Shown here in pieces: positions 10,120-62,453 of a stretch of 64,000 nucleotides of DNA (position 1 is its first letter; every line of letters begins with the position of its first letter). The stretch comes from a virus, in the IMG/VR virus record IMGVR_UViG_3300006931_000029, positions 157,124-221,123 of that record; one strand, given 5' to 3'. Below the pieces are notes generated by a model. It ran no database searches, was not told the origin of the DNA, and saw only the letters and a program-made list of their open reading frames with translations. The translations under genes and the position numbers were made by a program.

Positions 10120-11445
10120 TCAACTGATCCTGGTGACCTTCAAGAAAGACCCAACCAAGACGTTGCCCGTGCCACTGGTTGCCTTCTTCGCGGTGAGAAA
10201 CAGGTTGCACGCCGAATTGGGTGCCGTGATCAGACCACCAAACGTCACAACACCGTTCCCGACTTGTCTGATCATCGCTGTGGATTGGAAACCTTGGGCA
10301 GTGATCTGATCAACGACCCGCAGAGCATTCGCACCCAGCGTGGCCTGTGTGCCTTCCATCCATCCGTTAATGGTAGCGCCAGCGACGCTGCATTGAATAC
10401 CGAACTGAGCACCTGCCGTCGACGATGATTGAGCTCCGATAAAACCGTTGAACTCGTAGACCCCGTTAGCGACTAGGGCAACGGTCGAGTCGGTGATCGT
10501 CGTGTTGACGGTGGTGTAGGCAGCAACTACGTCTACCGTTCCCCAGATGCTCGTCGCGCCTTGAAAACCCTGTGGTCCCTGAGCTCCGGTCGTTCCTTGA
10601 CTGCCCGTAGTTCCGGTCGTCCCTTGGAATCCTTGCGAACCTTGAGTTCCAGTTCCTCCTTGCAAACCCTGGAATCCTTGAGCACCAGTGCCCGTCGCAC
10701 CTTGGAATCCCTGGAAACCCTGGTTGCCCGTCGTGCCTGTCGCACCTTGAACTCCTTGAGAACCGGTCGAACCTCCTACTCCTTGGAATCCTTGAAAGCC
10801 CTGACTTCCTGTCGAACCTGTGGCGCCTTGCAATCCCTGTGATCCGACGCCGGTTGCACCTTGGAAACCTTGACTGCCTTGCGAACCGGTCGTGCCGGTT
10901 ACGCCTTGAAAACCTTGGCGACCCTGAAATCCCTGAAAGCCTTGAGCTCCGACGTCGCCTTGAGAACCCGCGCTTCCCTGCAAACCCTGATTGCCCTGCG
11001 CCCCGGTGTTTCCAACAACGCCCTGCGATCCTTGAGAACCGACGGCTCCTTGGGCACCTGTCGCGCCCTGAGAACCTGTCGAACCACCTACTCCTTGGAA
11101 ACCCTGAGCTCCGACACCAGTCAAACCTTGAAAGCCTTGGAAACCCTGGTTTCCTTGTGAACCAATCGATCCTTGAACTCCTTGTGAACCGGTCGCTCCT
11201 TGCGACCCGACTGCGCCTTGTACGCCCTGACTGCCAGTTACGCCTTGAAAACCCTGGTTGCCTACGGCGCCTTGGAAACCCTGCAGCCCACTGGAATACG
11301 GCAGAGAATTCCAGCGCGTAACTCCGTCACCTAGCTTCCACTTGCCGGTGTCAACCTCAACGCCGAGTTCACGTTCAGCGAGAAGAGGATTGATGGCGGT
11401 GGCAAGTGCTGCCAACCCGCCACGTTGCTGCATCTGCTGGGCCAT
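10120..11445 (-). CDS. Collagen-like tail-fibre protein
   Basis: 441 residues. Residues 1-52 match the N-terminal domain of phage major tropism determinants and fibres (INPLLAERELGVEVDTGKWK, then GDGVTRWNSLPY). Residues 55-300 are an uninterrupted Gly-X-Y array dominated by GFQG, GSQG, TGxTG and VQG triplets, predicted to form a trimeric triple helix. The last 145 residues are a globular tip (NGVYEFNGFIGAQSS). Gln fills many Y positions, so stability cannot rely on hydroxyproline. Likely a receptor-binding or decorative fibre. The downstream 10046-10119 gap holds only the next promoter. Confidence 0.85.
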   Translation of the reverse strand: MAQQMQQRGGLAALATAINPLLAERELGVEVDTGKWKLGDGVTRWNSLPYSSGLQGFQGAVGNQGFQGVTGSQGVQGAVGSQGATGSQGVQGSIGSQGNQGFQGFQGLTGVGAQGFQGVGGSTGSQGATGAQGAVGSQGSQGVVGNTGAQGNQGLQGSAGSQGDVGAQGFQGFQGRQGFQGVTGTTGSQGSQGFQGATGVGSQGLQGATGSTGSQGFQGFQGVGGSTGSQGVQGATGTTGNQGFQGFQGATGTGAQGFQGLQGGTGTQGSQGFQGTTGTTGSQGTTGAQGPQGFQGATSIWGTVDVVAAYTTVNTTITDSTVALVANGVYEFNGFIGAQSSSTAGAQFGIQCSVAGATINGWMEGTQATLGANALRVVDQITAQGFQSTAMIRQVGNGVVTFGGLITAPNSACNLFLTAKKATSGTGNVLVGSFLKVTRIS

Positions 11446-13520: not shown

Positions 13521-14414
13521 TTACGGAATTATCGTGACGGTTATTTTCTGACTGACAGTGGAGCCTGCGGTGTTTGAGACCGAGCACATATAGACACCAC
13601 CGTCGGAGGCCTGCGCAGATGCGACGGAAAAGACTTGGTTCGTTGATCCTTGGATTGGCGTTCCGTTCTTGAACCATTGGAAAGAAAGTGGTGGTGATCC
13701 TTCAGAATCGGCTGATAGGGTGAGGAGTTGTCCTACCTTAACTGTCGTAGCCAAGGCGAGTTTCACTGATCCGGCTGGTGCAAATGCAACGTAGACAAAT
13801 TTGGTGCCATCGCTAGCAAGGAGTTGTCCTGCGTGATTGGCAGGATCAGGAAGTCCTGAAACACCCGGAGGTCCTTGCGGGCCGACGTCACCCTTCGGTC
13901 CTTGTACGCCGATGCCTGGCAATCCCGGGTCGCCTTGATCGCCTTTCGGACCTTGCGGGCCTGGAGGTCCTGGAATTCCGGTAGGCGGAGGAGGTGGCGT
14001 TACACCAATCGACACCGACGAACCAACCTTCGTCTTCAGCTTTGCACCATCTTCCATGGTGATGGTAACTCCAACCAAGGGCGAGAGATTGTTCGACCCG
14101 AGTGTAGCGCTGAATCCTCCGCTCACGTTGTTCGCGACGACGATCGCAATACCGCCGGCCGATTTGACTACGTTAATCTTGTCAAGGACACTGTTGACAC
14201 CTCGATCAAGCAAAACAATTTTGCCAGCCCACGCAGCGTCTGCCGATTGGCCGAGTCCGCCGTAAACCAAAACAGCTGTGGTCGCAACCTTCGGCGTGCC
14301 AGTGACGTAGACGGCAGGGTATGCGTCAGGCGTTGCAAAGACGTAGACAGCGTCTGCGGCCGCCAAAAACGGTAACAGAAATAGGAATCCCAAGAAAACG
14401 GTAAGGCGCTTCAC
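13521..14414 (-). CDS. Secreted PA-collagen-Ig domain protein
   Basis: 297 residues from GTG 14414, with AAGG six bases upstream. Residues 1-21 are a signal peptide ([20 protein letters not shown]). Residues 45-130 resemble a protease-associated (PA) domain ([20 protein letters not shown], then [11 protein letters not shown]). Residues 143-190 are collagen-like. Residues 210-297 are an Ig-like domain with the expected Trp and Cys ([21 protein letters not shown]). A signal peptide on a protein with virion-like modules suggests export to the infected-cell surface. Two bases separate it from the collagen/coiled-coil gene. Confidence 0.8.
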
Positions 14415-23953: not shown

Positions 23954-24424
23954 TTAATAGCCGCGCAGTTCGTCTCGAACTTCCATCAACAAATGGCCCA
24001 ACTTATTTTGGCCAACGCCGTCGCACACGCCCCAAAAGTGGTCGCTCCACCAATTTTTCTCTTCAAGAAATTTCTGCCCCGTGTCCAGCAGCGCTCGCCT
24101 CATCTGTTCGTTGGCGTACTTGGCCCGAAGCACGTCGCGCATGACGTCGACCTTCCGGGTCTCCCAATCGGCGGTAAGCTTTGCCGTCTGCCCTTTGGTC
24201 TTTGCCTGGAATGGTGAGCAGCCCTTGAAGTAAGACCGAGCATTCGGCCAATGATCTTCCTTTGGCCACTTCGCCGCCTGGTAGGCGTTCTCGCTGGACG
24301 GAAAGAACTCGCCCTCGTAGTGGAGGGGAGTCGGAAACATGTTCGACAACCAGCGATACGGGCCGAAGAACCCTCGAATCACCAGGTCGTTGTGGACGTA
24401 CTCGAAGTCAGGTGGGATTCTCAC
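23954..24424 (-). CDS. NADAR-family protein (YbiA-like)
   Basis: 156 residues. RGFFGPYRWLSNMFPTPLHY, then FPSSENAYQAAKW with conserved Glu45, and DHFWGVCDGVGQNKLGHLLM reproduce the NADAR fold. Characterised members hydrolyse N-glycosidic bonds of riboflavin intermediates or remove ADP-ribose from nucleic acids (DarT-NADAR systems). No DarT-like partner is adjacent. In a phage it could reverse host ADP-ribosylation or act on NAD-derived signals. Confidence 0.9.
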   Translation of the reverse strand: MRIPPDFEYVHNDLVIRGFFGPYRWLSNMFPTPLHYEGEFFPSSENAYQAAKWPKEDHWPNARSYFKGCSPFQAKTKGQTAKLTADWETRKVDVMRDVLRAKYANEQMRRALLDTGQKFLEEKNWWSDHFWGVCDGVGQNKLGHLLMEVRDELRGY

Positions 24425-42334: not shown

Positions 42335-42745
42335 ATGTTTACGGACTTGGAGGTTCTTTCTGGCGTGCATTTCGTCACCATTTACACTAAGGTTGGCCCG
42401 AAGCTATCGAACTGGCTGACGGCGAAAGGTGTGACCGACGACGAGTGGTTGAAGTGGTGTCTTCGAGACCGAGATTCGAAGGACTTCACCGCAATTGTCG
42501 ATGAGCTGGAAGAGGCAGCAACAGCTGCCGAGGTCTTAGTTTCGCCGATCCTTGAGGTGGAACGCTACATCATGGAATCCACGGAGAAAGTCGAACTGCT
42601 TATTGAACGCAGAAAGCTGGTATTAACGTCGAGACCGAAGCACTACGCTAGCTCGGAACTCATTTCGAGATTCATCTCAAAGTGGTTTGAGATTTTGGAC
42701 AAAGAAGCCGCTAGCGATCTTTCCGCCACACGACCCACTTCTTAA
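42335..42745 (+). CDS. Plus-strand hypothetical helical protein, 136 aa
   Basis: MFTDLEVLSGVHFVTIYTKV followed by long helices (RYIMESTEKVELLIERRKLV). It diverges from the LemA operon and overlaps the 3' end of the sigma gene by 35 bases, tail to tail. Composition is protein-like, and no better minus-strand gene occupies the space. Ribosome site weak. Confidence 0.6.
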   Translation: MFTDLEVLSGVHFVTIYTKVGPKLSNWLTAKGVTDDEWLKWCLRDRDSKDFTAIVDELEEAATAAEVLVSPILEVERYIMESTEKVELLIERRKLVLTSRPKHYASSELISRFISKWFEILDKEAASDLSATRPTS

Positions 42746-43619
42746 GCTGGTTGATAGCGTCCTGCCGTATCTGACAGATACGCGATTCAGTGACCTTGAA
42801 CTCCTCAGCTATCTGCCACAGTCGCATGCCCTCGAAGTAGTTCATCCGCAAGATGGTTTGCCATTGGTCGGGTAACCGGCTGATGTGGGTTTTCAGCAAG
42901 CCAACCAGCTCTGCTTCCTGCATTGAGTCTCTTGCAAGAACGTCCTGGGTGTCTGCCAGAGACTCGTGAAGAGATACGCCGTGTTCCTCACTTTCGCTGA
43001 TGAAATCGATAGACGTGAACGTTTGAGGACGGGCTTCTTCGACCATTTTTCTGTACTCGGTTGGCGTCAAGTTCATCTCGGCCATGATCTCGGTCGCCGT
43101 CGGGTCTCGTTGCAGTTTTTGCGTCAACGTTGCGACAACTTCTTTTAGAACCCGGTTTCTAGCTCGAGCTCGACGAGGAACCCAATCCATCCTCCTAAGC
43201 TCGTCTAGGATAGCTCCTCGAATTCTCATGGAAGCGTACCCTTTGAACGAAGAAGCTCTGGCAGCGTCGTACTTCTTCGCTGCCGCCATCAACCCGGTTA
43301 TTCCTACGCTGTGCAGGTCGTCTGCGTCGATGTGTGCAGGAAGATTTAGTTTGATCCGGTCCACGACCTGTCGGACGAGGTACATGTGTTGCACAAGAAA
43401 ATCTCCGCTAGTTGCCTCCGCGGTTACTTCTTGCCTCTTCCTCTTAGGTTTAACGATCAGCTCGTGAGGAGCTTGGTTCACCTGCTCCCTAGGAACGACC
43501 GGTTGAAAAATGTCAAGGCGGTGCCGAGGCGCCACCATGATCGGTGGACCGTCGACGACAACTTGAATAATCTCGAAAGCGTCGTCCTCGACTGTGAGTA
43601 GGACGAGCGTTGAGTTCAC
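42711..43619 (-). CDS. FliA/WhiG-type RNA polymerase sigma factor
   Basis: 302 residues. Region 2 (about 75-150): LPAHIDADDLHSVGITGLMA, KKYDAARASSFKGYASMRIR, GAILDELRRMDWVPRRAR. Region 3 (155-205): QKLQRDPTATEIMAEMNLTP. Region 4 (235-297): MRLWQIAEEFKVTESRICQI. All match the sigma-28 family, which lacks region 1.1. Residues 1-72 are an extra N-terminal part not found in FliA and might bind polymerase or an anti-sigma. The next gene downstream is on the opposite strand. Coupled by ATGA to the DUF2325-like gene upstream. It could drive phage-specific promoters. Confidence 0.9.
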   Translation of the reverse strand: MNSTLVLLTVEDDAFEIIQVVVDGPPIMVAPRHRLDIFQPVVPREQVNQAPHELIVKPKRKRQEVTAEATSGDFLVQHMYLVRQVVDRIKLNLPAHIDADDLHSVGITGLMAAAKKYDAARASSFKGYASMRIRGAILDELRRMDWVPRRARARNRVLKEVVATLTQKLQRDPTATEIMAEMNLTPTEYRKMVEEARPQTFTSIDFISESEEHGVSLHESLADTQDVLARDSMQEAELVGLLKTHISRLPDQWQTILRMNYFEGMRLWQIAEEFKVTESRICQIRQDAINQLKKWVVWRKDR

Positions 43620-48518: not shown

Positions 48519-49052
48519 TTATTTCTTGGAGCGTTCCTGTTCCCAAAGGGCGGTGACGCGATCGATTTCAGATTGAGCGTGAGGAGTTCCGCCGGTGTTC
48601 ATCTCGAGGTACCATTGAAGCACGTCCGCGTACGACGAAAGACTTCCGACTTGAAAGATCAAGCTGGTGCGGCGAGCGATGGTATCGAAATCGTCGTAGT
48701 CGAGGAACGAGTGACCGAAGACAGGGATTTCTCCGCGCAGCATCTTGCGAACAGCCGTGAGACGCTGGAGACCATCGACGAGGTACATCGGTCCCTCAAA
48801 ATTGTTTTGCCAACCGCGGCAGTTGAAGATGATGGTACGGCCAGACTCGCCGCCGCGGATCAGAAACTCGCAGAAGGCGATCTGTTGTTCGCGAGACCAG
48901 ACGTGGCCACGCTGAAATTCAGGTTCGAGGATAAGCGGGCAGGTCCGCCGACCTTCGTCAGACCAACGACCGATCGTGAATTCAACTTCAGCGACCGTCA
49001 CGTCGATGCGGTAGTGGGCTTGTTTGAGTTGAGGGATGGCCGAAAGTTTCAT
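48519..49052 (-). CDS. DUF262 (ParB/GmrS N-terminal-like) protein
   Basis: 177 residues. LEPEFQRGHVWSREQQIAFC and MYLVDGLQRLTAVRKMLRGE are the hallmark 'P.FQR...W....Q' and 'DGLQRLT' of DUF262, a ParB/sulfiredoxin-like NTP-binding fold used in GmrSD-type restriction and regulatory proteins. The nuclease half is missing, so it may be a decoy or a stand-alone NTP-sensing protein. ATG 49052 is six bases after the promoter -10 box. Confidence 0.85.
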   Translation of the reverse strand: MKLSAIPQLKQAHYRIDVTVAEVEFTIGRWSDEGRRTCPLILEPEFQRGHVWSREQQIAFCEFLIRGGESGRTIIFNCRGWQNNFEGPMYLVDGLQRLTAVRKMLRGEIPVFGHSFLDYDDFDTIARRTSLIFQVGSLSSYADVLQWYLEMNTGGTPHAQSEIDRVTALWEQERSKK

Positions 49053-52633: not shown

Positions 52634-53052
52634 GGTTTGGTTTTCTTCCGATGATCGTAGACGATGTGCTTCTGTTCTTCGGCATGCATGCGAGGAGCGA
52701 AGACGTGGCACTTCCCATCGTCTAGCAAGAACTCACGGTGGATCGTGTCGGCAGGAAGATTGGCGTCAGGCTTGGACATTTCAACAACGGCTGTTTCTGG
52801 TTTTTGAACCAATTCGCCTTTCCACATTCTTCCGCTTACCTTGGGAACGACCGGAGCTTCGTCTCGCTGTTGTCGTTTGCCGGCTTTCGAGACATAGGTC
52901 TTGAGCAGGATTTCCAAACTACCTGCTTTCTCGATACGACCTCGAATGTACTCAGGATCGGAATAAACGACCTCGTCTCCAGTGACTGAACACTTCAGCG
53001 TGAGAGGGCAGGGAAAGCCAAGAGTCGGGTTGATCGGGTTGATGCCGCTCAT
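52630..53052 (-). CDS. Hypothetical protein, 140 aa
   Basis: FPCPLTLKCSVTGDEVVYSD then PEYIRGRIEKAGSLEILLKT shows a CxL..C start followed by a helix, a layout of phage zinc-knuckle proteins. Basic tail. ATGA-coupled to the HU-like gene. Confidence 0.65.
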   Translation of the reverse strand: MSGINPINPTLGFPCPLTLKCSVTGDEVVYSDPEYIRGRIEKAGSLEILLKTYVSKAGKRQQRDEAPVVPKVSGRMWKGELVQKPETAVVEMSKPDANLPADTIHREFLLDDGKCHVFAPRMHAEEQKHIVYDHRKKTKP

Positions 53053-53264
53053 GTGAGGAACGACTTTGAAGGAACGAACTTCACTACTGATCGGGCCTGA
53101 ACCTTGACGATTTGACCGCTCGGCAAACGCTGGTTGCCGGCTTTCTTCTTCACGATCTTGAAGGTGCCGAAACCGCGGATTGACAGCTTTCCGTTCTGGC
53201 GAACGGATTGCCGGATGTCACTCAGAAAATTCTGCAGATTTGGTGCAAGAGGCTTGACGATCAT
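53049..53264 (-). CDS. HU/IHF-family DNA-binding protein
   Basis: 71 residues. KLSIRGFGTFKIVKKKAGNQ, then VKVQARSVVKFVPSKSFLT matches the beta-arm and C-terminal part of HU/IHF ('GFGTF.v..R..R.grNP.TG..i.i.a...p.F.pgK.l'). Several consensus residues differ: the 'RNP.TG' tip is replaced by NQRLPSG. HU-like proteins bend and compact DNA. First gene of its operon. Confidence 0.8.
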   Translation of the reverse strand: MIVKPLAPNLQNFLSDIRQSVRQNGKLSIRGFGTFKIVKKKAGNQRLPSGQIVKVQARSVVKFVPSKSFLT

Positions 53265-53270
53265 GAAGCC

Positions 53271-53298
53271 ATCCTACACTTTGGTTGGAATTTGTAAA
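53271..53298 (-). promoter_or_regulatory. Leaderless-type promoter of the HU-like operon
   Basis: TTTACA at 53293-53298 and TAGGAT at 53271-53276 with a 16-base spacer that includes AAAGTG; six bases to ATG 53264. Confidence 0.65.
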
Positions 53299-53327
53299 CA
53301 AAAAAGTGTTGGCCTATTTCAGCCAAA

Positions 53328-53831
53328 CTAGCGCTTTGCGGTCCCAACTCCATCGTTTTTCTCGATGATGTCTAGGAACGCAAATGTTTTTCCTGAGTAC
53401 GCGTAGCCCAGCAAGATCGATTCAAACTCCTGGTCTGTGATCCACGAAAAACCCTGCTCCTTCACATACTCAATTGCGCCGTCGGGATTGAAACGCACCA
53501 GTCGTTGATTGACGAGCCGAGCTTCAGATGGAATCTTCACCACGATTGGTAGTGTCACGACGCTCGCGACTCGCACGAACGGAGACGTGCGGTGCCAACC
53601 AGGGTGTTGAACCGTCACAGACCCGTCGCTCGAGTCGTACGCCAACCCAACGTGGTTGAGCGAAATATGGTTCAAGCAGAGAATGTAGAAAAGTGGAGCG
53701 CCGAAAACCAGGATTACGGCTAAAGCGATGAGAGACCAACGAAGTATAGAGCGCATAGTACTGCCAGGAGAACGATAAATCTCCTCCAGCGCCGGGTCAT
53801 ACCCGAGTTTTGCTGAAGGAGATTTGCTCAT
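53328..53831 (-). CDS. Membrane-anchored SPFH/prohibitin-like protein
   Basis: 167 residues. One N-terminal helix (WSLIALAVILVFGAPLFYIL) followed by ISLNHVGLAYDSSDGSVTVQ, then HPGWHRTSPFVRVASVVTLP, the 'vg.v......G....GWH...P' pattern of short SPFH-like proteins found in phages. The domain is truncated relative to bacterial flotillins. Function unknown. Confidence 0.65.
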   Translation of the reverse strand: MSKSPSAKLGYDPALEEIYRSPGSTMRSILRWSLIALAVILVFGAPLFYILCLNHISLNHVGLAYDSSDGSVTVQHPGWHRTSPFVRVASVVTLPIVVKIPSEARLVNQRLVRFNPDGAIEYVKEQGFSWITDQEFESILLGYAYSGKTFAFLDIIEKNDGVGTAKR

Positions 53832-53834
53832 TGG

Positions 53835-53951
53835 TTAAGAAGCCGGAGCTTCGGTTGGAGCTGGCGTGGCTGGTGTCGGTTCGGCCGGTGCAGGCGTTGC
53901 GACTTTCGGTTTGCCAGCTGAGGTTTCGTTATCTTCTGCGGGAGCGCCCAT
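53835..53951 (-). CDS. Pro/Ala/Thr-rich peptide, 38 aa
   Basis: MGAPAEDNETSAGKPKVATP, then PAEPTPATPAPTEAPAS. Low-complexity, acidic start and Pro-rich tail. It fits exactly between its neighbours (three bases to the next ATG). Possibly a flexible linker protein; translation is inferred from spacing. Confidence 0.5.
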   Translation of the reverse strand: MGAPAEDNETSAGKPKVATPAPAEPTPATPAPTEAPAS

Positions 53952-53968
53952 GGTGATGTCCTGTTGGT

Positions 53969-55300
53969 TTACGTTAATGAGCCAACAGCGACGGTTTCTT
54001 TGTCGTCAGCCGTTGGCCCGAAAGAGAGAAGACGCGGAACAATTCCGGTGGTGGCTTTGATCTCTGTCAATAACCAGTCAATGGTTCCTACGTCTTTGTA
54101 GACCGGTTTTGCGTTCTCAAGAGCTTGTGTAACTTTGGCCCGTGCAAACAAATCCCGAGAACTAGAATGATCGAGACGCATGGTAGACCTATCCGGCAAT
54201 CTGTACTCTGAGCAGACCTTCAGTTCGCCAAGTGAACTTACCCGATCCAAGCATGTCACGGCTAGGTAGTCCATCTTGCCGGCGACGTCGCACGCGTACT
54301 TCAATGCCACAGTGTCGAGCCAACCAGCCCTCATGCCACCTTGCCATCGGTTGTGGACGTTGTGCTGCTCTGGAAGTCTGCGCGTCATATCCTCGTCATA
54401 AGCAACAAAGGGACCCGCGCCATGTCTCGTGCTGTAGGCTCGCGTTACGCCGATCTTGGTAACCTCTCCGCCATAGCCGATCTCGTCCAACATTTCGTCG
54501 GCGTTGGCGAACGTCGTTGTGCTCCACGTGGTATGAGGATGAAAACCGTACCACTCGTCTAACAACACGCCTTGAGCGCCTTCGAAGACGATTGGTCTGT
54601 CTTGGTTGGCGATGTCTCTCCACGTGTTGCGCGGCACGATATGAACCTCTTGGACGAAACTTTGATAAATTCCTAGAAAGAAGTCGATGACTGATCCGTC
54701 AACGAAGCAATCCTCAAACTCCTGCATCGCGTCTGGATGAAACGACGCGCCATCGAGCATCCTCTTCAACTTGGCGCATTTGTGCTCTCTCAAGAGCTTT
54801 AGTTTCTGTCTGACGAGGTCTGGATAGAATAAATCTCCAGCTCGGATAACGAACTGAGGATTCAACATGACGTCCTCCATCGTCTCGCCGATGCCGATGC
54901 CGCACGTTCCGTGGGCTCCGTCACCGCGGTGCAGCTCAATGATTCGGTTCGCCGCTTGTTGAAAAGGGCTGATGATAGGCGCCTCGTGATCTATGAAAGT
55001 GCGAGCCATCGGCTTCGACACGCCAAGCGTCTCGAGATGCGCGGCTTCCTTCATCATAGCCTTTGGAGCGATCAGCACGTGTTTCGACAGGAACGTGGTG
55101 GTATCGTCCACGAACATGCCGCTGCCGAACTGAGAAAATTTGTGGCTTCGTCCATCACTTGTGACGACGTGGTGGGCCGCCTGAGCGCCACCGTTAAACC
55201 GGACCACAGTTCCAGCGCCCACCTTGCGGACAAGGTAATCGACGGTCGTTCCTTTGCCTTGGTCTCCATATCCAAGGTCGACGACGATGTAGGCTTTCAT
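53969..55300 (-). CDS. purA: Divergent adenylosuccinate synthetase
   Basis: 443 residues, close to the bacterial PurA length. VDLGYGDQGKGTTVDYL keeps Asp13, Gly15, Lys16 and Gly17 of the GDEGKG loop but has Gln14 instead of Glu. GGAQAAHHV keeps His43 (E. coli His41). PIVFEGAQGVLLDEWYG keeps the GAQG IMP-binding loop, and STRHGAGPF and GWLDTVALKYA are retained. The 'TTGRGIG' region is changed to GTCGIGIGETMED. Normal PurA joins IMP and aspartate. In PurZ of 2-aminoadenine phages the Asp13 position is Ser, so Asp13 here favours IMP-like chemistry. The substrate is uncertain because many IMP-pocket residues differ. Confidence 0.85.
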   Translation of the reverse strand: MKAYIVVDLGYGDQGKGTTVDYLVRKVGAGTVVRFNGGAQAAHHVVTSDGRSHKFSQFGSGMFVDDTTTFLSKHVLIAPKAMMKEAAHLETLGVSKPMARTFIDHEAPIISPFQQAANRIIELHRGDGAHGTCGIGIGETMEDVMLNPQFVIRAGDLFYPDLVRQKLKLLREHKCAKLKRMLDGASFHPDAMQEFEDCFVDGSVIDFFLGIYQSFVQEVHIVPRNTWRDIANQDRPIVFEGAQGVLLDEWYGFHPHTTWSTTTFANADEMLDEIGYGGEVTKIGVTRAYSTRHGAGPFVAYDEDMTRRLPEQHNVHNRWQGGMRAGWLDTVALKYACDVAGKMDYLAVTCLDRVSSLGELKVCSEYRLPDRSTMRLDHSSSRDLFARAKVTQALENAKPVYKDVGTIDWLLTEIKATTGIVPRLLSFGPTADDKETVAVGSLT

Positions 55301-55342
55301 AAAAGTGAGGCCGCCAAGAGTAGGGGTGTCGTCTTGGCGGCC
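55301..55342 (-). terminator. Possible terminator between vWA and PurA-like genes
   Basis: An 11-bp perfect stem (55309-55319 with 55332-55342) followed by TCACTTTT on the minus strand. The T-run is short and interrupted, so it may attenuate rather than stop. Confidence 0.5.
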
Positions 55343-55360
55343 GGTCGCTCGGTCGGTGTG

Positions 55361-56356
55361 TCAGGTCAGGCGACCATCATCGCCAGCGGTTGGAACCGCC
55401 GCTGGGAGATTGCTTGCCGCCGCCTTGGCGGTAATGGCACGAGACGTCGAAACAACGGCCAGTGCCGAACTTGCTGCGCGAATAGCGCCAGAATCTGCGC
55501 CTGCACTGTGTAGGTCGTCTGCTCCGTCCTTGATACTGGCGATGGCTCCTTCGACGAGGCCGATCGTCATGACGATGGTTTCACAAACAGCGTCGGCGTC
55601 AGGAAGCATGATGACTCGTTCGCCGAGAAGTTTCTTCCAGCGCTTGGCGATCTCCGGCATCGAACCAGTGCTCGTGGTTGGGATGATGTGGAACCACTCG
55701 TAGCGAGTCAGAAGCTCCTTGGTGATTTGCTCGAGTGTAACACTCGCCTCGAGTTTGTCACCAATTAGCTGCTCCACCTGTTCGCGATCGACCTTCGGAT
55801 ATGGCATCTCGTCACCGATGGTGAAGAGGTACGCTTTTTCCTGCCGCTTGTCCCAGCAGTCGAGGTCGGTTCGACGAGCGAAATAGAAGGGGATGAGCTC
55901 GTAGGATTCCGTGTTCTGGCCACCGCCACCGCCCTCGAGGAAGAATTTCCCGAGGTTATCGTCCATCTCCAAGCCGGATTCGAACTGACCGATCTGCAGA
56001 GGGACGCTATCGGTTGTGGCATCGCCGACGGCGCCGAAGAGAATTTGCGGGTCTTGCACGTAACTCTTGGCCAGCAGAATGTGCATGAGTTGACCGAGTT
56101 TCTTTTGGAGGACGACAGGGATTCCTCCCATAGAGCCAGTGACATCGAAAACGACGGCAATGGCGCGCGAATTTGGGTGAGCGGCGCTGTCGCGAGATTC
56201 ACGGCGCTTGTCCTTGATGTTCATGTCGGCGTGAACCACTCGCGGCCCACCTGACGATTTGACTGAGTGGTCGTAGGCGAATGCCGACGCTCCCGTTGCG
56301 GCGCGGTGTGTGGTCCGCGCTGTGTAATCCTTGTCTGACCAGCTTGTTGATCCCAT
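55361..56356 (-). CDS. von Willebrand factor A domain protein
   Basis: 331 residues. AIAVVFDVTGSMGGIPVVLQ contains the metal-ion site DxTxS (Asp71, Thr73, Ser75), followed by HILLAKSYVQDPQILFGAVG and YLFTIGDEMPYPKV, typical of stand-alone vWA folds. The C-terminal 70 residues are Ala/Ser-rich. vWA proteins usually assemble complexes; the next gene encodes a kinase-like protein, a pairing seen in conflict systems. 16 bases from the pseudokinase gene. Confidence 0.85.
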   Translation of the reverse strand: MGSTSWSDKDYTARTTHRAATGASAFAYDHSVKSSGGPRVVHADMNIKDKRRESRDSAAHPNSRAIAVVFDVTGSMGGIPVVLQKKLGQLMHILLAKSYVQDPQILFGAVGDATTDSVPLQIGQFESGLEMDDNLGKFFLEGGGGGQNTESYELIPFYFARRTDLDCWDKRQEKAYLFTIGDEMPYPKVDREQVEQLIGDKLEASVTLEQITKELLTRYEWFHIIPTTSTGSMPEIAKRWKKLLGERVIMLPDADAVCETIVMTIGLVEGAIASIKDGADDLHSAGADSGAIRAASSALAVVSTSRAITAKAAASNLPAAVPTAGDDGRLT

Positions 56357-56372
56357 GGTGATTTCTCCTGCG

Positions 56373-57509
56373 TTATGCCCCTGCTAGTGCTGGGACGTTA
56401 AAGATGCGAAACTTTGGTTTGCCGAAATTCTTCTCGAGCATTTTCTTCCAGTTGGTGGCCAACTCGAGAGCGTCGTTAGGACGACGATGAGGTGCCGGGA
56501 TTAGGCAAGAACGAAGAAAGCGTTGCATTTCAATCGGTACGCCAGCTGGAAAGACGGGATTGTGCGGTACGTTAGTTGCAGCACCGAGTAGGATCGACAA
56601 CGTGAACGCAGCCATGTAGATGTCCACGGCAGGAGTTGCTCCCATGCTTTTCAAAACTTCCGGTGGATAGAGAGCGATCCATTTTTTCGATATGGCCTTG
56701 ATTGGTTCACCAATCGGAACCGAATAGCACCAGTCCACCAGCACCAGCCCGTGGTTCTCAGCGCAAATCAAAGCGTGATCAGGCGTAAACGCTCCGTGGA
56801 CAATACCAGAAGCGTGGACAAGTCCAAGCGTCGTCCATGTCCGACTGCCCATCCATGCCACGTCTCGTGGATCGAGTGGAGCCATCTTGTACGCGTCGAG
56901 AATGTGGTTCATGCTCGTCAACCCTTCTGCTGGAATGAAGACGTTAGCCACTCGTTTTTTGTTGGCGACGTCTGCGACCGTAATGGATTCCAATAGTCGC
57001 GGAATTCTGAACTCCATGTCCTTGTCTTTCGCCAACTTTTCAATGGACGTCCGCTCCGCAGTCATCAGGTCATTATTCTTCGGATTGCGTACGACTTTGA
57101 CGTATGCCTCGTGGGTATCTCCGTCTTCAGAGTATTGAGCCTTGAGCACATCAGCAAGGTCACCTGTCAGCGACAATGGTTCCCCAACAACGTAGATTCG
57201 TTTCTTCGAATGGATGGTAACAGCCTCCGGAGCTGTGGCGACCACTGCCACCTTTCTGTCACCGTAAGTCTTAGCTTCGATCTTGGCCTCGGCCTGACCC
57301 CACCACTTGGCGAGAAGTTGAAACGCACCGTCGGCGACCTTCTTGTCTTTCGGGTCCGTGTAGCGATCGGCGTGGCAAACCTTAGCGAATTGGTGATAGA
57401 GTTTCTTGCCGGCCTTCATCGGGTCGGCAGAGCTCAGCTTCCCAAAGACGTCTTCAGGGCATTTCGCCTTGTTGAGTTGCTTGCGAACGTTATCGAGTTC
57501 AGGATTCAT
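56373..57509 (-). CDS. J-domain-like/pseudokinase fusion protein
   Basis: 378 residues. Residues 30-70 resemble the end of a J-domain (AGKKLYHQFAKVCHADRYTD; His-Ala-Asp 46-48 instead of HPD). Residues 100-370 follow a protein kinase fold: Lys138 in AYVKVVRN, Glu152, IVHGAFTPDHALICAENHGL, and DW at 259-260. The catalytic HRD Asp is replaced (HGAF), so phosphotransfer is doubtful. DIYMAAFTLS is the lobe-stabilising helix. Probably a scaffold coupled to the vWA protein and to chaperone activity. It overlaps the Toprim gene by 11 bases. Confidence 0.75.
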   Translation of the reverse strand: MNPELDNVRKQLNKAKCPEDVFGKLSSADPMKAGKKLYHQFAKVCHADRYTDPKDKKVADGAFQLLAKWWGQAEAKIEAKTYGDRKVAVVATAPEAVTIHSKKRIYVVGEPLSLTGDLADVLKAQYSEDGDTHEAYVKVVRNPKNNDLMTAERTSIEKLAKDKDMEFRIPRLLESITVADVANKKRVANVFIPAEGLTSMNHILDAYKMAPLDPRDVAWMGSRTWTTLGLVHASGIVHGAFTPDHALICAENHGLVLVDWCYSVPIGEPIKAISKKWIALYPPEVLKSMGATPAVDIYMAAFTLSILLGAATNVPHNPVFPAGVPIEMQRFLRSCLIPAPHRRPNDALELATNWKKMLEKNFGKPKFRIFNVPALAGA

Positions 57510-58398
57510 CGTCTTTTGCTTCTGGGAGCTCTTCGACTATGGTTTGCAGAAGGTCTTGGTCTTGCTGTTGGCGTTGCTCCATCTCGCGCCACGCGGACAT
57601 GTCTAGAAACTGCTTCACTCCGTTTTCAACCAGAGCTATAAGTGTCTTCGGCTCGAGAGCGTCTAGTTCCCAACTGCTATCGCCGAATTGTTCTCGGTAT
57701 GCCGCGGCTCGGCTGTCATCCATCTTCACCGGGTTTTCTGGGAGTTGATGGCGCTGGACTTGGTCGTAATTCAACGCGAGTCGAACGACGTCAACTGGGC
57801 CGTCGCTGTAGCGCTCGAGTCTATCTCTTACGTCACGAGACATGTCCAAACCGGACGGGTCGTGGTCACCCAAGTAGAGCACATGAACGTCTTTTCCTTC
57901 GACATCGCGCTGCGACTGAATGAACTTTCCTCGCGAGTACATCGATGACACGGACGAGTAACCTTTGTTGGCCGTAAAAGCAACTCCCCATTTTTCGCAG
58001 ACCGGCGCCAGCACGCCTTCCAGGGCTTGCTTCTCAACCATGACCTCGACGTAATGCTGTTGCTGTTTCCACCGAGCTAAACGAAAATGTTCAGTCAAGT
58101 GCTGCAGATACGACTTGAGACTCTTATATTCCGGAATCGAGTGAGTCACGCGTCCGCGGTCTTCGATGGCGTCCCAATCTAGCATGCCGCCTTCTCTTGA
58201 TTCAGAGATAACGGTAGCGAACGCTTCGTAGTTTTGCGGCGTATTTTTCATCCAGTTCTTCGCCACAAACTGGTAGTAAAGCTGGCGAACCGTAAGCTTG
58301 AAACCCTGTGAGAGATAGTCTTGGCACAAGCCGTCGGCTTTCGCGATAATGTCGATCGCTCGTTCACCAAACTTCTTCTCTCTGAAGCATTCTTTCAT
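57499..58398 (-). CDS. Toprim-like protein (TopoVI-A/Spo11-like core)
   Basis: 299 residues. FKLTVRQLYYQFVAKNWM is a motif of a phage Toprim family. VEVMVEKQALEGVLAPVCEK carries Glu122, and VLYLGDHDPSGLDMSRDVRD carries Asp178 and Asp180, the acidic set of Toprim folds. The WHD/Tyr nucleophile of TopoVI-A is not evident, so strand cleavage is unproven. First gene of the cluster with the pseudokinase, vWA and PurA-like genes. Confidence 0.8.
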   Translation of the reverse strand: MKECFREKKFGERAIDIIAKADGLCQDYLSQGFKLTVRQLYYQFVAKNWMKNTPQNYEAFATVISESREGGMLDWDAIEDRGRVTHSIPEYKSLKSYLQHLTEHFRLARWKQQQHYVEVMVEKQALEGVLAPVCEKWGVAFTANKGYSSVSSMYSRGKFIQSQRDVEGKDVHVLYLGDHDPSGLDMSRDVRDRLERYSDGPVDVVRLALNYDQVQRHQLPENPVKMDDSRAAAYREQFGDSSWELDALEPKTLIALVENGVKQFLDMSAWREMEQRQQQDQDLLQTIVEELPEAKDDES

Positions 58399-58408
58399 GG
58401 ACGGGTTT

Positions 58409-58436
58409 AGGCTAGCGTTGTCCTTGAGTTTGTAAA
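58409..58436 (-). promoter_or_regulatory. Leaderless-type promoter of the Toprim/pseudokinase/vWA cluster
   Basis: TTTACA at 58431-58436 and TAGCCT at 58409-58414 with a 16-base spacer; ten bases to ATG 58398. Confidence 0.5.
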
Positions 58437-58446
58437 CAAAAATAAA

Positions 58447-58962
58447 TCACTTGCCGTACCACGCCGTGATCGGTCGTATTGCGAACGGAGCAGAGTGGCC
58501 ATGCATCGGAATGTGACCCCAATCGCCGGTGTAGATTCGCCAACCTCTGTTGTTGCTCCCATCGTGGTCGCACCAGCCGTCCCAACCGTAATCGTGGCGT
58601 AGGCACGCGTAGGCGTCGTACGTTGCGGTGAGGCCATCCCTGGTTTCAGGAAGTGGCGGTGGAGTGACCTTGTCAGCGGCTTCCGAATTGAGGTAGTTGT
58701 AGACGAAAGCAGCAAGTTTTTGAGGATCGTAACCCTCGCCAAACGGAAATCGTTGCGTCAACTTATCGTTGTGATCGATCGGATACTGATACAAGACAAG
58801 GCCGAGGTGAGGATCGATTCGATAGCCCGTGAAGCCTCCGTACCCTTCGCTCTTCTTCGCGTGAACCTGCGGCCACCGAAATTCTCTGCGGAAGATGAAT
58901 TCGAGGATGCCGACCAGTTGAGCTTGGTTATCGCCTGTGACGTTGAATCTGTGGTTGTCCAT
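58447..58962 (-). CDS. Hypothetical protein, 171 aa
   Basis: Aromatic and Gly-rich (EGYGGFTGYRIDPHLGLVLY, YACLRHDYGWDGWCDHDGSN). TAATG coupling to the DUF2786 gene. No family recognised. Confidence 0.65.
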   Translation of the reverse strand: MDNHRFNVTGDNQAQLVGILEFIFRREFRWPQVHAKKSEGYGGFTGYRIDPHLGLVLYQYPIDHNDKLTQRFPFGEGYDPQKLAAFVYNYLNSEAADKVTPPPLPETRDGLTATYDAYACLRHDYGWDGWCDHDGSNNRGWRIYTGDWGHIPMHGHSAPFAIRPITAWYGK

Positions 58963-59798
58963 TACTTCAGGGCAGTGTTGATTTTGATCTTCTTGCCGGC
59001 GCGACGGCCCTCGGCAACAGAGCCGAAATCGTCTAGATTTCCTTCACTGACTTTGAAGTATTTCAACCGAGGATGGTAACCCTTGACGGCTTGATCGACC
59101 TTCTCTTTTTCGCCGATCAAAATCATGGCGACGGATTTGCCTGCATCAGCGTGCGACAGTTCGGCTTGCGCTTCGGCTTCGACTTTTCCCTTCTCGATGT
59201 CAAGCTTCTCATTGAGACCTTGGTAGACACCGTAGAAGAAGCTGTTACGGCTTGACATCGGTGCGTCGACGGCCTTCCGGTGTTTGTGCCAAAGGTCAAT
59301 GAATTCGCGATGGAGAAAGCCGTAGACGTAGATGGCAATGTGAACGTTGGTCTGTCGACCGATGAAGCTTAACGATTTCACGGTACCCGTCTTCTTGATT
59401 CCTTTGTCGACGTAGTCAGTCCAATCTGAACACTCGATGATCTTCACGCCGAAATACGACTTGAGAATCCACGTGATGAACTTATGACAGGATGGAAGTC
59501 TAGCTGCGCAAACTCCGCCTCCCTCGCGAGAAGGCCTGAACGGTTGCTGGACGATCGGCTCACCGGCTGACGTGTCCTCCGTCATGTCAATTGAGGCAAG
59601 GTCAATCCCGTGCTTCAGTGCAAGTCGTTGTGCGGCCATGAGCGCACCTTCGGCTTCGGCTTGTGTCGATCCTTTCGATGTCTCAGCTCGAGAAAGGAGC
59701 TTTTTGATCTTCTCGAGAATCTCGGTGTTCGCGACCGACATCGCCGGATGGTTCTCCGGTTTCAACCCTTCTGGTGCCTTCTCTGGTGCGTCGCTCAT
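58962..59798 (-). CDS. DUF2786 family protein
   Basis: 278 residues from ATG 59798. ILEKIKKLLSRAETSKGSTQ, AEAEGALMAAQRLALKHGID is DUF2786 ('i..kI.kLL..a....g.t..EA..A...a..l...h'). The larger C-terminal half has a helical, basic core. DUF2786 proteins occur in phages and mobile elements; function unknown. Confidence 0.85.
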   Translation of the reverse strand: MSDAPEKAPEGLKPENHPAMSVANTEILEKIKKLLSRAETSKGSTQAEAEGALMAAQRLALKHGIDLASIDMTEDTSAGEPIVQQPFRPSREGGGVCAARLPSCHKFITWILKSYFGVKIIECSDWTDYVDKGIKKTGTVKSLSFIGRQTNVHIAIYVYGFLHREFIDLWHKHRKAVDAPMSSRNSFFYGVYQGLNEKLDIEKGKVEAEAQAELSHADAGKSVAMILIGEKEKVDQAVKGYHPRLKYFKVSEGNLDDFGSVAEGRRAGKKIKINTALK

Positions 59799-59814
59799 TG
59801 TAGTCAAGAACTAG

Positions 59815-60242: not shown

Positions 60243-61166
60243 TTAGTTGAGAAGCAGGTCGACGGCGGCCGTCTGCAGGCCAATACCGTAACCGATCATG
60301 TTGGTCTCGAAGCGGGATTCGGCAGCACGCTTAGCGCGAACCGGTTTCTCGTGCGAGAGGAACTGCGTGACCGCGTTTAACGCGTCGGCGCGGGTCTTAC
60401 CCTCGTTGCCGATACCGTTGCGGAAGAGCTCGAACACCTTTGTGCGGGTGTTGGTGACACGTTTGCCTTCGCCGGGCATCCAAACCTCGACGAATTTCTT
60501 CGCGTCGCCTTCGGACATCTTGACGGACTGGAGTTGGTTGTAGACCTTCTGGAACTCCTGCGCATGCTTGTCGGCGAGACCGACGATGCGGTGAGCTTGT
60601 TCAATTTTGTCCTTGAAGTTTTTCGTGTGACGGATAACGACCATCGATTTGGCCTCACCGAGGGCGGCCGACAGCGTGTTCATGCAAACCACGCGAGTGG
60701 AGACGAAGCGAACTGAAACCGGTTTGGTGCCGTCGTGACTGAGATAAACGAGGAAGTACTGCTTGAGTCCGTCGTTTTTGCCAGAGAGAAAGTACTCCTT
60801 CTTGAGGCTGGCGAGGAACCAAACGATCTTGCCGTTGCGGAGTGAACCGGCCGTCTCGTAGACTGCGTCGTCACCGATAACCGGATCGAGGATGTTGAGA
60901 CCGTCGACGTTCTGGATCGGCGTGTAGCGGGTGCCCACGATTCCGAGGGGCTCGCCAGTGTCAGCGCGAACGATTCCGAAGTGGTCGGGGAAGGATTTGC
61001 CGTCAGCAACGCGGATGCGTTTCTTTGAAACTTCCCAGTTCAGTTTGGCCTGAGCGAGAGCGGCTTCCGCCGTAAGAGCACCTTGGACAACGGTGCCGAG
61101 TTTGTGCCACGGGACGATACCGTTAGCAGAGACCATGTGGTCATTTTCCTGGAGTTCGTGAGCCAT
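60243..61166 (-). CDS. DUF932 (phage/plasmid-like) protein
   Basis: 307 residues. IVPWHKLGTVVQGALTAEAA, IVGTRYTPIQNVDGLNILDP, VRFVSTRVVCMNTLSAALGE match the DUF932 family shared by phages and plasmids. Members are abundant in early regions; function unknown. The start is preceded by a leader of about 50 bases, unlike the leaderless genes. Confidence 0.9.
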   Translation of the reverse strand: MAHELQENDHMVSANGIVPWHKLGTVVQGALTAEAALAQAKLNWEVSKKRIRVADGKSFPDHFGIVRADTGEPLGIVGTRYTPIQNVDGLNILDPVIGDDAVYETAGSLRNGKIVWFLASLKKEYFLSGKNDGLKQYFLVYLSHDGTKPVSVRFVSTRVVCMNTLSAALGEAKSMVVIRHTKNFKDKIEQAHRIVGLADKHAQEFQKVYNQLQSVKMSEGDAKKFVEVWMPGEGKRVTNTRTKVFELFRNGIGNEGKTRADALNAVTQFLSHEKPVRAKRAAESRFETNMIGYGIGLQTAAVDLLLN

Positions 61167-61961: not shown

Positions 61962-62417
61962 TTAAACTCTAGTTGCGCATTCGGGTCCGAGACCCAGTTC
62001 GATACTCTCTGGAACAGTGAGCTTACGCCCACAACGGCCGCAGCGACCCTCGTGCCACAATTCGCAGTTCGGAAGCTCCTGACCTGCGAGAACTCGCTCG
62101 ACTACCCACCTAGCTGCCTTAGCGGATGGCGCGTCCGGCGTAATCTTCGATCGGACGCCGTGCGAGTAAGTCCCATTGGCGAAAATCGTGCCGACAAACT
62201 GGTATGAATGCTCGTTGTCCGAACCGTTAAGGACTGAGACGAAGTGCGGCGATTGAGCGGTCGGTTTGCGAACCTTCAGCGTGAATCGCGTCTGGGTTTT
62301 ACCTGACCGGACCGTGAAAGTAGCGTTACCAGCGAGCAGAAACTGCTTTAAGTTTGCCGGAGCAACTTGAGCAGGAGCAGCGGGGTCCAGTCCAGGTAGG
62401 GAAGGAGTGTCAACCAT
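61962..62417 (-). CDS. DUF6011-like zinc protein, 151 aa
   Basis: The C-terminus GRCGRCGRKLTVPESIELGL, then GPECATRV is the DUF6011 Cys4 signature. The middle (FTLKVRKPTAQSPHFVSVLN) is the usual RNA/DNA-modification-like beta region of that family. ATG 62417 lies seven bases after a -10-like box. Confidence 0.8.
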   Translation of the reverse strand: MVDTPSLPGLDPAAPAQVAPANLKQFLLAGNATFTVRSGKTQTRFTLKVRKPTAQSPHFVSVLNGSDNEHSYQFVGTIFANGTYSHGVRSKITPDAPSAKAARWVVERVLAGQELPNCELWHEGRCGRCGRKLTVPESIELGLGPECATRV

Positions 62418-62424
62418 AAAAACC

Positions 62425-62453
62425 ATTCAACCCACTTTGTTCTGAAATGTAAA
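62425..62453 (-). promoter_or_regulatory. Leaderless-type promoter
   Basis: TTTACA at 62448-62453 and TTGAAT at 62425-62430 with a 17-base spacer including AAAGTGGG; seven bases to ATG 62417. Confidence 0.65.

Follow-up and report, generated by a model that had tools for sequence, protein, structure and literature searches.

A window of 64,000 nucleotides from the virus record IMGVR_UViG_3300006931_000029 (bases 157124-221123 of its 224,954 bases) carries on its minus strand three adjacent genes, which encode a J-domain pseudokinase (JPK), a vWA protein and a paralogue of adenylosuccinate synthetase (PurA). These genes recur in the same order, JPK > vWA > PurA paralogue, in other phages and in bacteria, and we have very little doubt that together they make up a mobile module in the window. 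The first core gene, for JPK (378 amino acids; 56373..57509), matches phrog_3043 (E 4.2e-33) and is separated by 16 nt from the second, for a vWA protein of 331 amino acids (55361..56356; phrog_2971, E 1.7e-69), which is followed after 60 nt by the third, for the PurA paralogue (443 amino acids; 53969..55300; Pfam Adenylsucc_synt, E 3.5e-67; phrog_1211). A preliminary description of this DNA had instead grouped the JPK and vWA genes with an upstream Toprim gene. All three of those open reading frames (ORFs) are present on the minus strand where it had placed them, and the pairing of JPK with vWA was correct, but the boundary of the module was not, as the PurA gene (55300-53969) had been missed and the Toprim gene is not a member. 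Megablast of the region against phage records gave no match, and a promoter and terminator scan of 53200-59000 gave results no better than those of shuffled sequences.

We examined the conservation of this unit by scoring, with profiles, the neighbouring genes at loci fetched by the module proteins. Scanning viral contigs with just the JPK sequence gave no matches, and the JPK alignment found five loci; to these were added the best 80 of 463 viral loci and the best 80 of 441 genome loci fetched by vWA, so that the vWA-fetched loci hold vWA by construction and the sample represents the relatives most like the window. Thirteen loci (L003, L012, L034, L038, L045, L052, L057, L062, L064, L065, L072, L079 and L089) were dropped as duplicates or copies of the window. 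Among 82 phage loci the order was JPK>vWA>PurA in 64, vWA>PurA in 12, JPK>vWA in three, Nudix>vWA>PurA in two and Nudix>vWA>PurA>JPK in one, while the 80 genome loci comprised 60 with Nudix>JPK>vWA>PurA, six with Nudix>vWA>PurA, six with JPK>vWA>PurA, five with vWA>PurA, two with vWA alone and one with Nudix>JPK>vWA. The vWA-PurA order was thus present in 79/82 phage loci and 77/80 genome loci. On eight plasmid loci we found JPK eight times, the Nudix gene seven times and PurA six times; JPK, vWA and PurA are adjacent on plasmids of Rhodococcus, Tsukamurella, Allorhizobium and Acetobacter. Mycobacteriophages ET08, Tonenili and Dandelion have the kinase, the vWA gene (annotated as hypothetical) and PurA in that order, and vWA followed by PurA without JPK occurs in Vibrio, Rhizobium and gut phages. 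Across 50,697 phage records, in which duplicates of one phage are counted, JPK was found in 191 and vWA in 207. The preliminary statement that no phage system with such a combination was known therefore needs correction, as JPK-vWA-PurA is present, unrecognised as a unit, in Bixzunavirus mycobacteriophages, with the gene order read in three of them.

Because vWA had been the bait, we ran the reverse retrieval with PurA. Of 80 PurA-fetched viral loci (about 24 of them, by eye, on contigs already in the JPK- or vWA-fetched sets), 76 contained vWA, and in the four misses PurA lies less than 1 kb from the contig end. JPK was present in only 52 of these 80 loci, so the firm, invariant core of the module is vWA plus the PurA paralogue. 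As a control, vWA or JPK was found within ~1.4 kb of none of 16 canonical purA loci, whereas vWA was found at 12 of 14 second-PurA loci in the same genomes, the exceptions being a further PurA-like copy (L203) and a Gemmataceae copy away from vWA (L204). The distance matrices of the three proteins correlated with r 0.86-0.90 over 85 loci, a level reached in 0/1000 permutations. No general conserved fifth gene was found: one cluster of antisense-type ORFs recurred in 30 of 88 loci, but no other family in the bacterial flanks, their names being judged by eye, exceeded 16.

The Toprim gene (57499..58398, minus strand; 299 amino acids) is a co-oriented upstream neighbour, and its ORF overlaps that of JPK by 11 nt. 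The product is Toprim/topoisomerase-VI-A-like (phrog_6247, E 3.2e-96), and both the family profile and the motif residues E122 and D178-x-D180 bear out the domain assignment. Its proposed partnership with the module fared differently when gene order was compared among relatives: JPK and vWA kept a fixed order, but a Toprim relative lies near the module at only one of 181 other loci, L031, where the order is Toprim, JPK, vWA, PurA, with Toprim just upstream of JPK as in the window. We therefore reject membership of the module and regard Toprim as a local neighbour outside the conserved unit. Toprim relatives in phage records (76) are listed mostly in other kinds of phage, and when 13 further neighbours in the window were tested at other loci, 12 had no relative close to the module and the remaining one had just one (L044).

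Some phage lineages showed other genes beside the core. In phages that lack JPK, a conserved methionine-rich protein with no assigned family is encoded just upstream of vWA (L004 7217-7930, L005 6636-7427, L006, L008 and L094). In one phage clade PurA is followed, often within 35 nt, by an R2K-type ATP-grasp gene (for example L069 3675-4424), which may extend the ligase chemistry of the module; a DNA ligase gene is nearby in the same clade, and the two families occur in 15 and 16 of 78 loci.

No Pfam vWA model matched any of the 47 members of the vWA family, and because Pfam gave no family we relied on fold comparison. The AlphaFold model (predicted local distance difference test score, pLDDT, 92) retrieved integrin I-domains and other vWA folds with Foldseek (best E 2.1e-5). 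The metal-ion-dependent adhesion site (MIDAS), the motif by which vWA domains coordinate metal, has the sequence DVTGS at residues 71-75 (56132..56146, minus strand), and D71, T73 and D182 are present in 47/47 members and S75 in 46/47. The preliminary assignment as a vWA protein with MIDAS is thus upheld by the model and by the presence and conservation of D71-x-T73-x-S75 and D182. The vWA gene of phage ET08 (L001 7086-8870) encodes 594 amino acids, with an intein-like insert that by eye splits a conserved region before the GDE motif, as opposed to the plain 340-residue form in Tonenili.

JPK consists of a J-domain at about residues 1-80 (57270..57509, minus strand) and a pseudokinase domain at about residues 97-372 (56394..57221, minus strand). 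In its AlphaFold model (pLDDT 94), helices 30-45 and 53-78 flank the position of HPD, the motif that in J-domains lies between helices II and III, and a kinase fold follows, which resembles PknB (template-modelling score 0.77 by target) and PknA chain 6b2q_C (VIA Z 26.4, root-mean-square deviation 2.1 over 240 residues). The family profile matches solved DnaJ domains (6iws, E 5.8e-9), and Pfam DnaJ matches 34 of 61 family members, so that the call of a J-domain joined to a protein-kinase fold holds. In active kinases the Asp of HRD is catalytic. Both HRD and HPD had been described as altered, which is true of the window protein (HGA and HAD) but not of the system as a whole, as HPD is kept in 55/61 members, including 19/19 bacterial ones, and the HAD of the window is the sole such case. 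Loss of the HRD Asp, on the other hand, extends across the family (59/61), and the two members that retain it have neither the Lys, the Glu nor the DFG Asp. All three of these residues are kept in 37/61 members and all are lost in 16/61, which divides the family into members predicted to bind nucleotide and others that are more decayed. Judged by these motifs JPK is not a standard kinase, and "dead" is meant here in that sense only, because known pseudokinases can do other chemistry.

A vWA protein encoded beside a kinase-fold protein is likewise found in the TerY-P triad, which is composed of vWA, kinase and PP2C phosphatase proteins. The module differs from the triad in that its kinase is a pseudokinase with a J-domain, the HRD Asp of an active Ser/Thr kinase having been lost, and in that PurA takes the place of the phosphatase; general family scans of the phage and bacterial flanks, which included no PP2C profile search, revealed no PP2C phosphatase as a conserved third gene.

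The PurA paralogue shares its fold and full length with E. coli PurA (hhalign probability 100, E 1.8e-48). We compared 55 diverse module PurA proteins with 17 canonical ones, that of E. coli and 16 from module-carrying genomes, numbering residues as in E. coli PurA without Met. G12, D13, K16, H41, Q224, T239 and D333 are kept in 55/55 module proteins, and these include the catalytic Asp13, His41 and Lys16 and the guanine-site Asp333, residues whose roles we in part take as assumed. In contrast, N38 is replaced by Q (55/55), V273 by H (55/55) and T301 by Q (53/55); R143 is kept in 3/55, K140 is lost and R305 is replaced. R303, which contacts the ribose O2' of IMP and aspartate according to the available text of PMC8342488, is replaced by many residues, Arg not being among the six commonest residues listed at that position. 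As catalytic residues are kept and substrate residues changed, the machinery for GTP-driven activation of oxygen looks intact, and the acceptor and amino-acid sites appear to have been rebuilt.

This protein is an additional paralogue in a clade of its own. A canonical PurA (44-51% identity to that of E. coli) was also present in 16/16 module-carrying genomes tested, and the module and canonical proteins were separated in the tree with SH-aLRT 100; a housekeeping PurA identity is ruled out by these two observations together with the substrate-site changes. The window PurA grouped with Chloroflexota copies (SH-aLRT 96, and 87 in a larger tree). Labelling the tree by phage or bacterial origin needs seven changes, and therefore the module moved repeatedly between them.

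The bacterial module mostly takes the form of an operon of four genes, the leading (or divergent) one of which encodes, as predicted from its domains, a Nudix-winged-helix regulator of the NrtR/AraR type. NrtR_WHD scored over the Pfam cut-off in 7/7 Nudix genes scanned, one of them from viral locus L030, and under it in those of the Tsukamurella and Rhodococcus plasmid copies. The best solved relative was AraR (E 1.2e-56), and the other nearest ones were also Nudix-winged-helix regulators. The module-linked gene thus has Nudix and NrtR_WHD domains in common with NrtR/AraR regulators but differs in sitting in an operon with JPK-vWA-PurA and, in some copies, in a Nudix box that is degenerate by eye. 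In alphaproteobacterial plasmids the gene is divergent, a placement that only suggests that the putative regulator binds its own operator and is released by an ADP-ribose-like ligand. Most phage copies lack the regulator, and it does not adjoin the module of the window. Relatives of it sense ADP-ribose, as stated in the accessible part of PMC9503650. A NADAR-family protein is encoded at 23954-24424 of the window (minus strand; PF08719, E 8.9e-20), at a distance of about 30 kb from the module genes, and NADAR genes adjoin the module in two Vibrio phages and also at loci L021 and L092. Together, the relatives of the regulator and the NADAR genes point weakly to NAD/ADP-ribose chemistry. Positions 48656-48988 of the record, which lie outside the window, encode a separate Nudix protein.

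The module is accessory in bacteria. vWA was found in 43 of 150 genomes of one actinobacterial family, and a phylum-wide search with the JPK profile matched 131 of 296 genomes at E 1e-10, only two of which have a true JPK: G001, the centre of the search, and G220 (E 1e-124 and 1e-108). The other matches were general kinases near 60 bits or less. On the viral side, 38 of the 80 vWA-fetched contigs have a length of 100 kb or more, and 18 reach 200 kb or more. The preliminary description had considered a host-takeover or anti-defence complex; the module is not a takeover complex restricted to phages, because it also occurs on bacterial chromosomes and plasmids. PADLOC 2.0.0 gave no match for vWA and PurA, and for JPK only weak kinase-domain matches (E 1e-6 to 6e-8); no NCBIfam system names the module; and no description of it was found in the open-licence literature, although a subscription paper could still have one. 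A close parallel is provided by the ARG-centred ADP-ribose systems of actinobacteria and planctomycetes, which, in the portion of PMC9503650 available, likewise combine a Nudix-HTH regulator with a vWA protein and have a NADAR link; that portion mentions neither adenylosuccinate synthetase nor a J-domain. ARG, phosphatase and SseB/TY-chaperone were not seen as conserved module partners in general flank scans, which included no ARG profile search. The JPK-vWA-PurA operon appears to be new as a system, though each of its domains is known.

We infer that the module is a regulated nucleotide-modifying conflict or stress module of putative chemistry, and we give this explanation as a whole, the module together with its nucleotide-modifying role, a probability of about 0.45. 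The PurA paralogue would be catalytically active and dependent on GTP, with which it would activate an oxo or carboxyl group on an acceptor that is not IMP; it would not use aspartate in the usual way, and its product would be a modified nucleotide or a metabolite resembling one. The vWA protein, through metal-dependent binding by its MIDAS, may hold, fold or gate the PurA paralogue together with JPK, which would recruit Hsp70 via its J-domain and bind nucleotide without HRD catalysis. In bacteria the Nudix-winged-helix protein, which has relatives that sense ADP-ribose or similar ligands, might report the state of that nucleotide pool and switch the operon; phages would have retained the effectors while in most cases losing the regulator, and their copies probably alter or protect the nucleotide/NAD pool of infected cells. 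The biochemical part of this proposal, an enzyme that uses GTP to form a new product resembling a nucleotide, with vWA and JPK-Hsp70 as its gate and the Nudix regulator as its reporter, is possible, with the odds somewhat against it. The broader idea is more tentative still: an undescribed nucleotide-based stress or conflict system common to phages and bacteria, in which JPK and vWA control a PurA with a rebuilt acceptor site, the product is a new purine- or ADP-ribose-derived metabolite, bacteria have an NrtR-type sensor, and phages carry the maker without the sensor.

Several observations weigh against this explanation. JPK was not found in 14/82 phage loci and 28/80 loci of the reverse test, and it is not essential to the core. 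A Gemmataceae genome has vWA and a module-type PurA at separate places (L118 and L204), and L066 is a JPK-vWA pair without PurA. The link to NAD/ADP-ribose draws on regulator homology and on scattered NADAR genes (7/183 loci by phmmer, some of them weak). Finally, the roles of the E. coli PurA residues other than R303 and Asp13 are those that we presume them to have.

The rival that we take most seriously, though we consider it unlikely, is a bacterial anti-phage defence or stress module, on the host side first, which phages captured for use against competing phages or for shielding the infected cell. It overlaps with the biochemical proposal above, and it would account for the patchy distribution (vWA in 43/150 genomes of one family, a true JPK in 2/296 phylum-wide), the carriage on plasmids, the module's own regulator and the exchanges between phages and bacteria implied by the seven changes on the PurA tree. 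However, none of the PADLOC matches rose above noise, the bacterial flanks are not established as defence islands, the unit has no effector such as a nuclease, and the deepest diversity was seen in phages, though the genome set consists of the 80 loci most like the window. A set of chaperones for virion assembly or host takeover, in which JPK and vWA would fold phage proteins and PurA would be incidental, seems improbable to us: a role in virion assembly has been proposed for both the vWA-MoxR pairs and the DnaJ proteins of jumbo phages (PMC7824862, in the part available), but the invariant pair here is vWA and PurA rather than vWA and J, and the same operon occurs in bacteria with a Nudix regulator. 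The complex of vWA, J/pseudokinase and Toprim proteins suggested in the preliminary description is very improbable, for although the genes share a strand, Toprim overlaps JPK by 11 nt and L031 repeats the order Toprim, JPK, vWA, PurA, only the window and L031 have this arrangement among 182 loci.

The two remaining alternatives concern the PurA paralogue itself. That it is a working phage PurA which raises the supply of AMP, with the other two genes as its chaperones, would agree with retention of Asp13, Lys16, His41, Gln224, Thr239 and Asp333 in 55/55 proteins; we judge it a poor prospect, given the family-wide changes at Asn38, Val273, Thr301, Arg303, Arg305, Arg143 and Lys140, the canonical PurA already present in the bacterial carriers (16/16) and the separate clade of the module protein. 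The PurZ enzymes of phages S-2L and phiVC8 are likewise PurA-superfamily enzymes in phages, and the label "2-aminooxy adenylosuccinate synthetase" of phrog_1211 and a distant homology (E 1.8e-10 to NCBIfam PurZ, well below its cut-off) might suggest a PurZ-like enzyme for 2-aminoadenine DNA. PurZ has other partners, however, and Ser at position 13 in 147/147 phage proteins according to the available text of PMC12884076; of the 481 PurA homologues that this paper counts in phages, that text takes up the PurZ group and does not go into the others. As Asp13 is kept in 55/55 module proteins, we reject a PurZ or modified-DNA identity and regard the corresponding explanation as scarcely credible; for the same reason the phrog_1211 label is misleading for these phage genes.

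The module joins into one unit three families that had been filed as unknown or misnamed (PHROG 2971, 3043 and 1211), and it is present in about 190 mycobacteriophage records, in other large phages and in several bacterial phyla. It is therefore directly open to study in phages of M. smegmatis. The role proposed here, if true, would give the PurA fold a third fate in addition to PurA and PurZ, and would be an instance of a pseudokinase bringing Hsp70 to a metabolic enzyme.

Other genes of the window were noted in passing. An HU/IHF-type DNA-binding protein is encoded at 53049-53264 (minus strand; PF00216, E 7.2e-12), and upstream of the Toprim gene, also on the minus strand, lie genes for DUF2786/DUF7168 (58962-59807), DUF932 (60243-61166) and DUF6011 (61962-62426) proteins. 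Tail-fibre-type proteins and an RNA polymerase sigma-factor-like protein are encoded on the minus strand at 10120-11445, 13521-14414 and 42711-43619.

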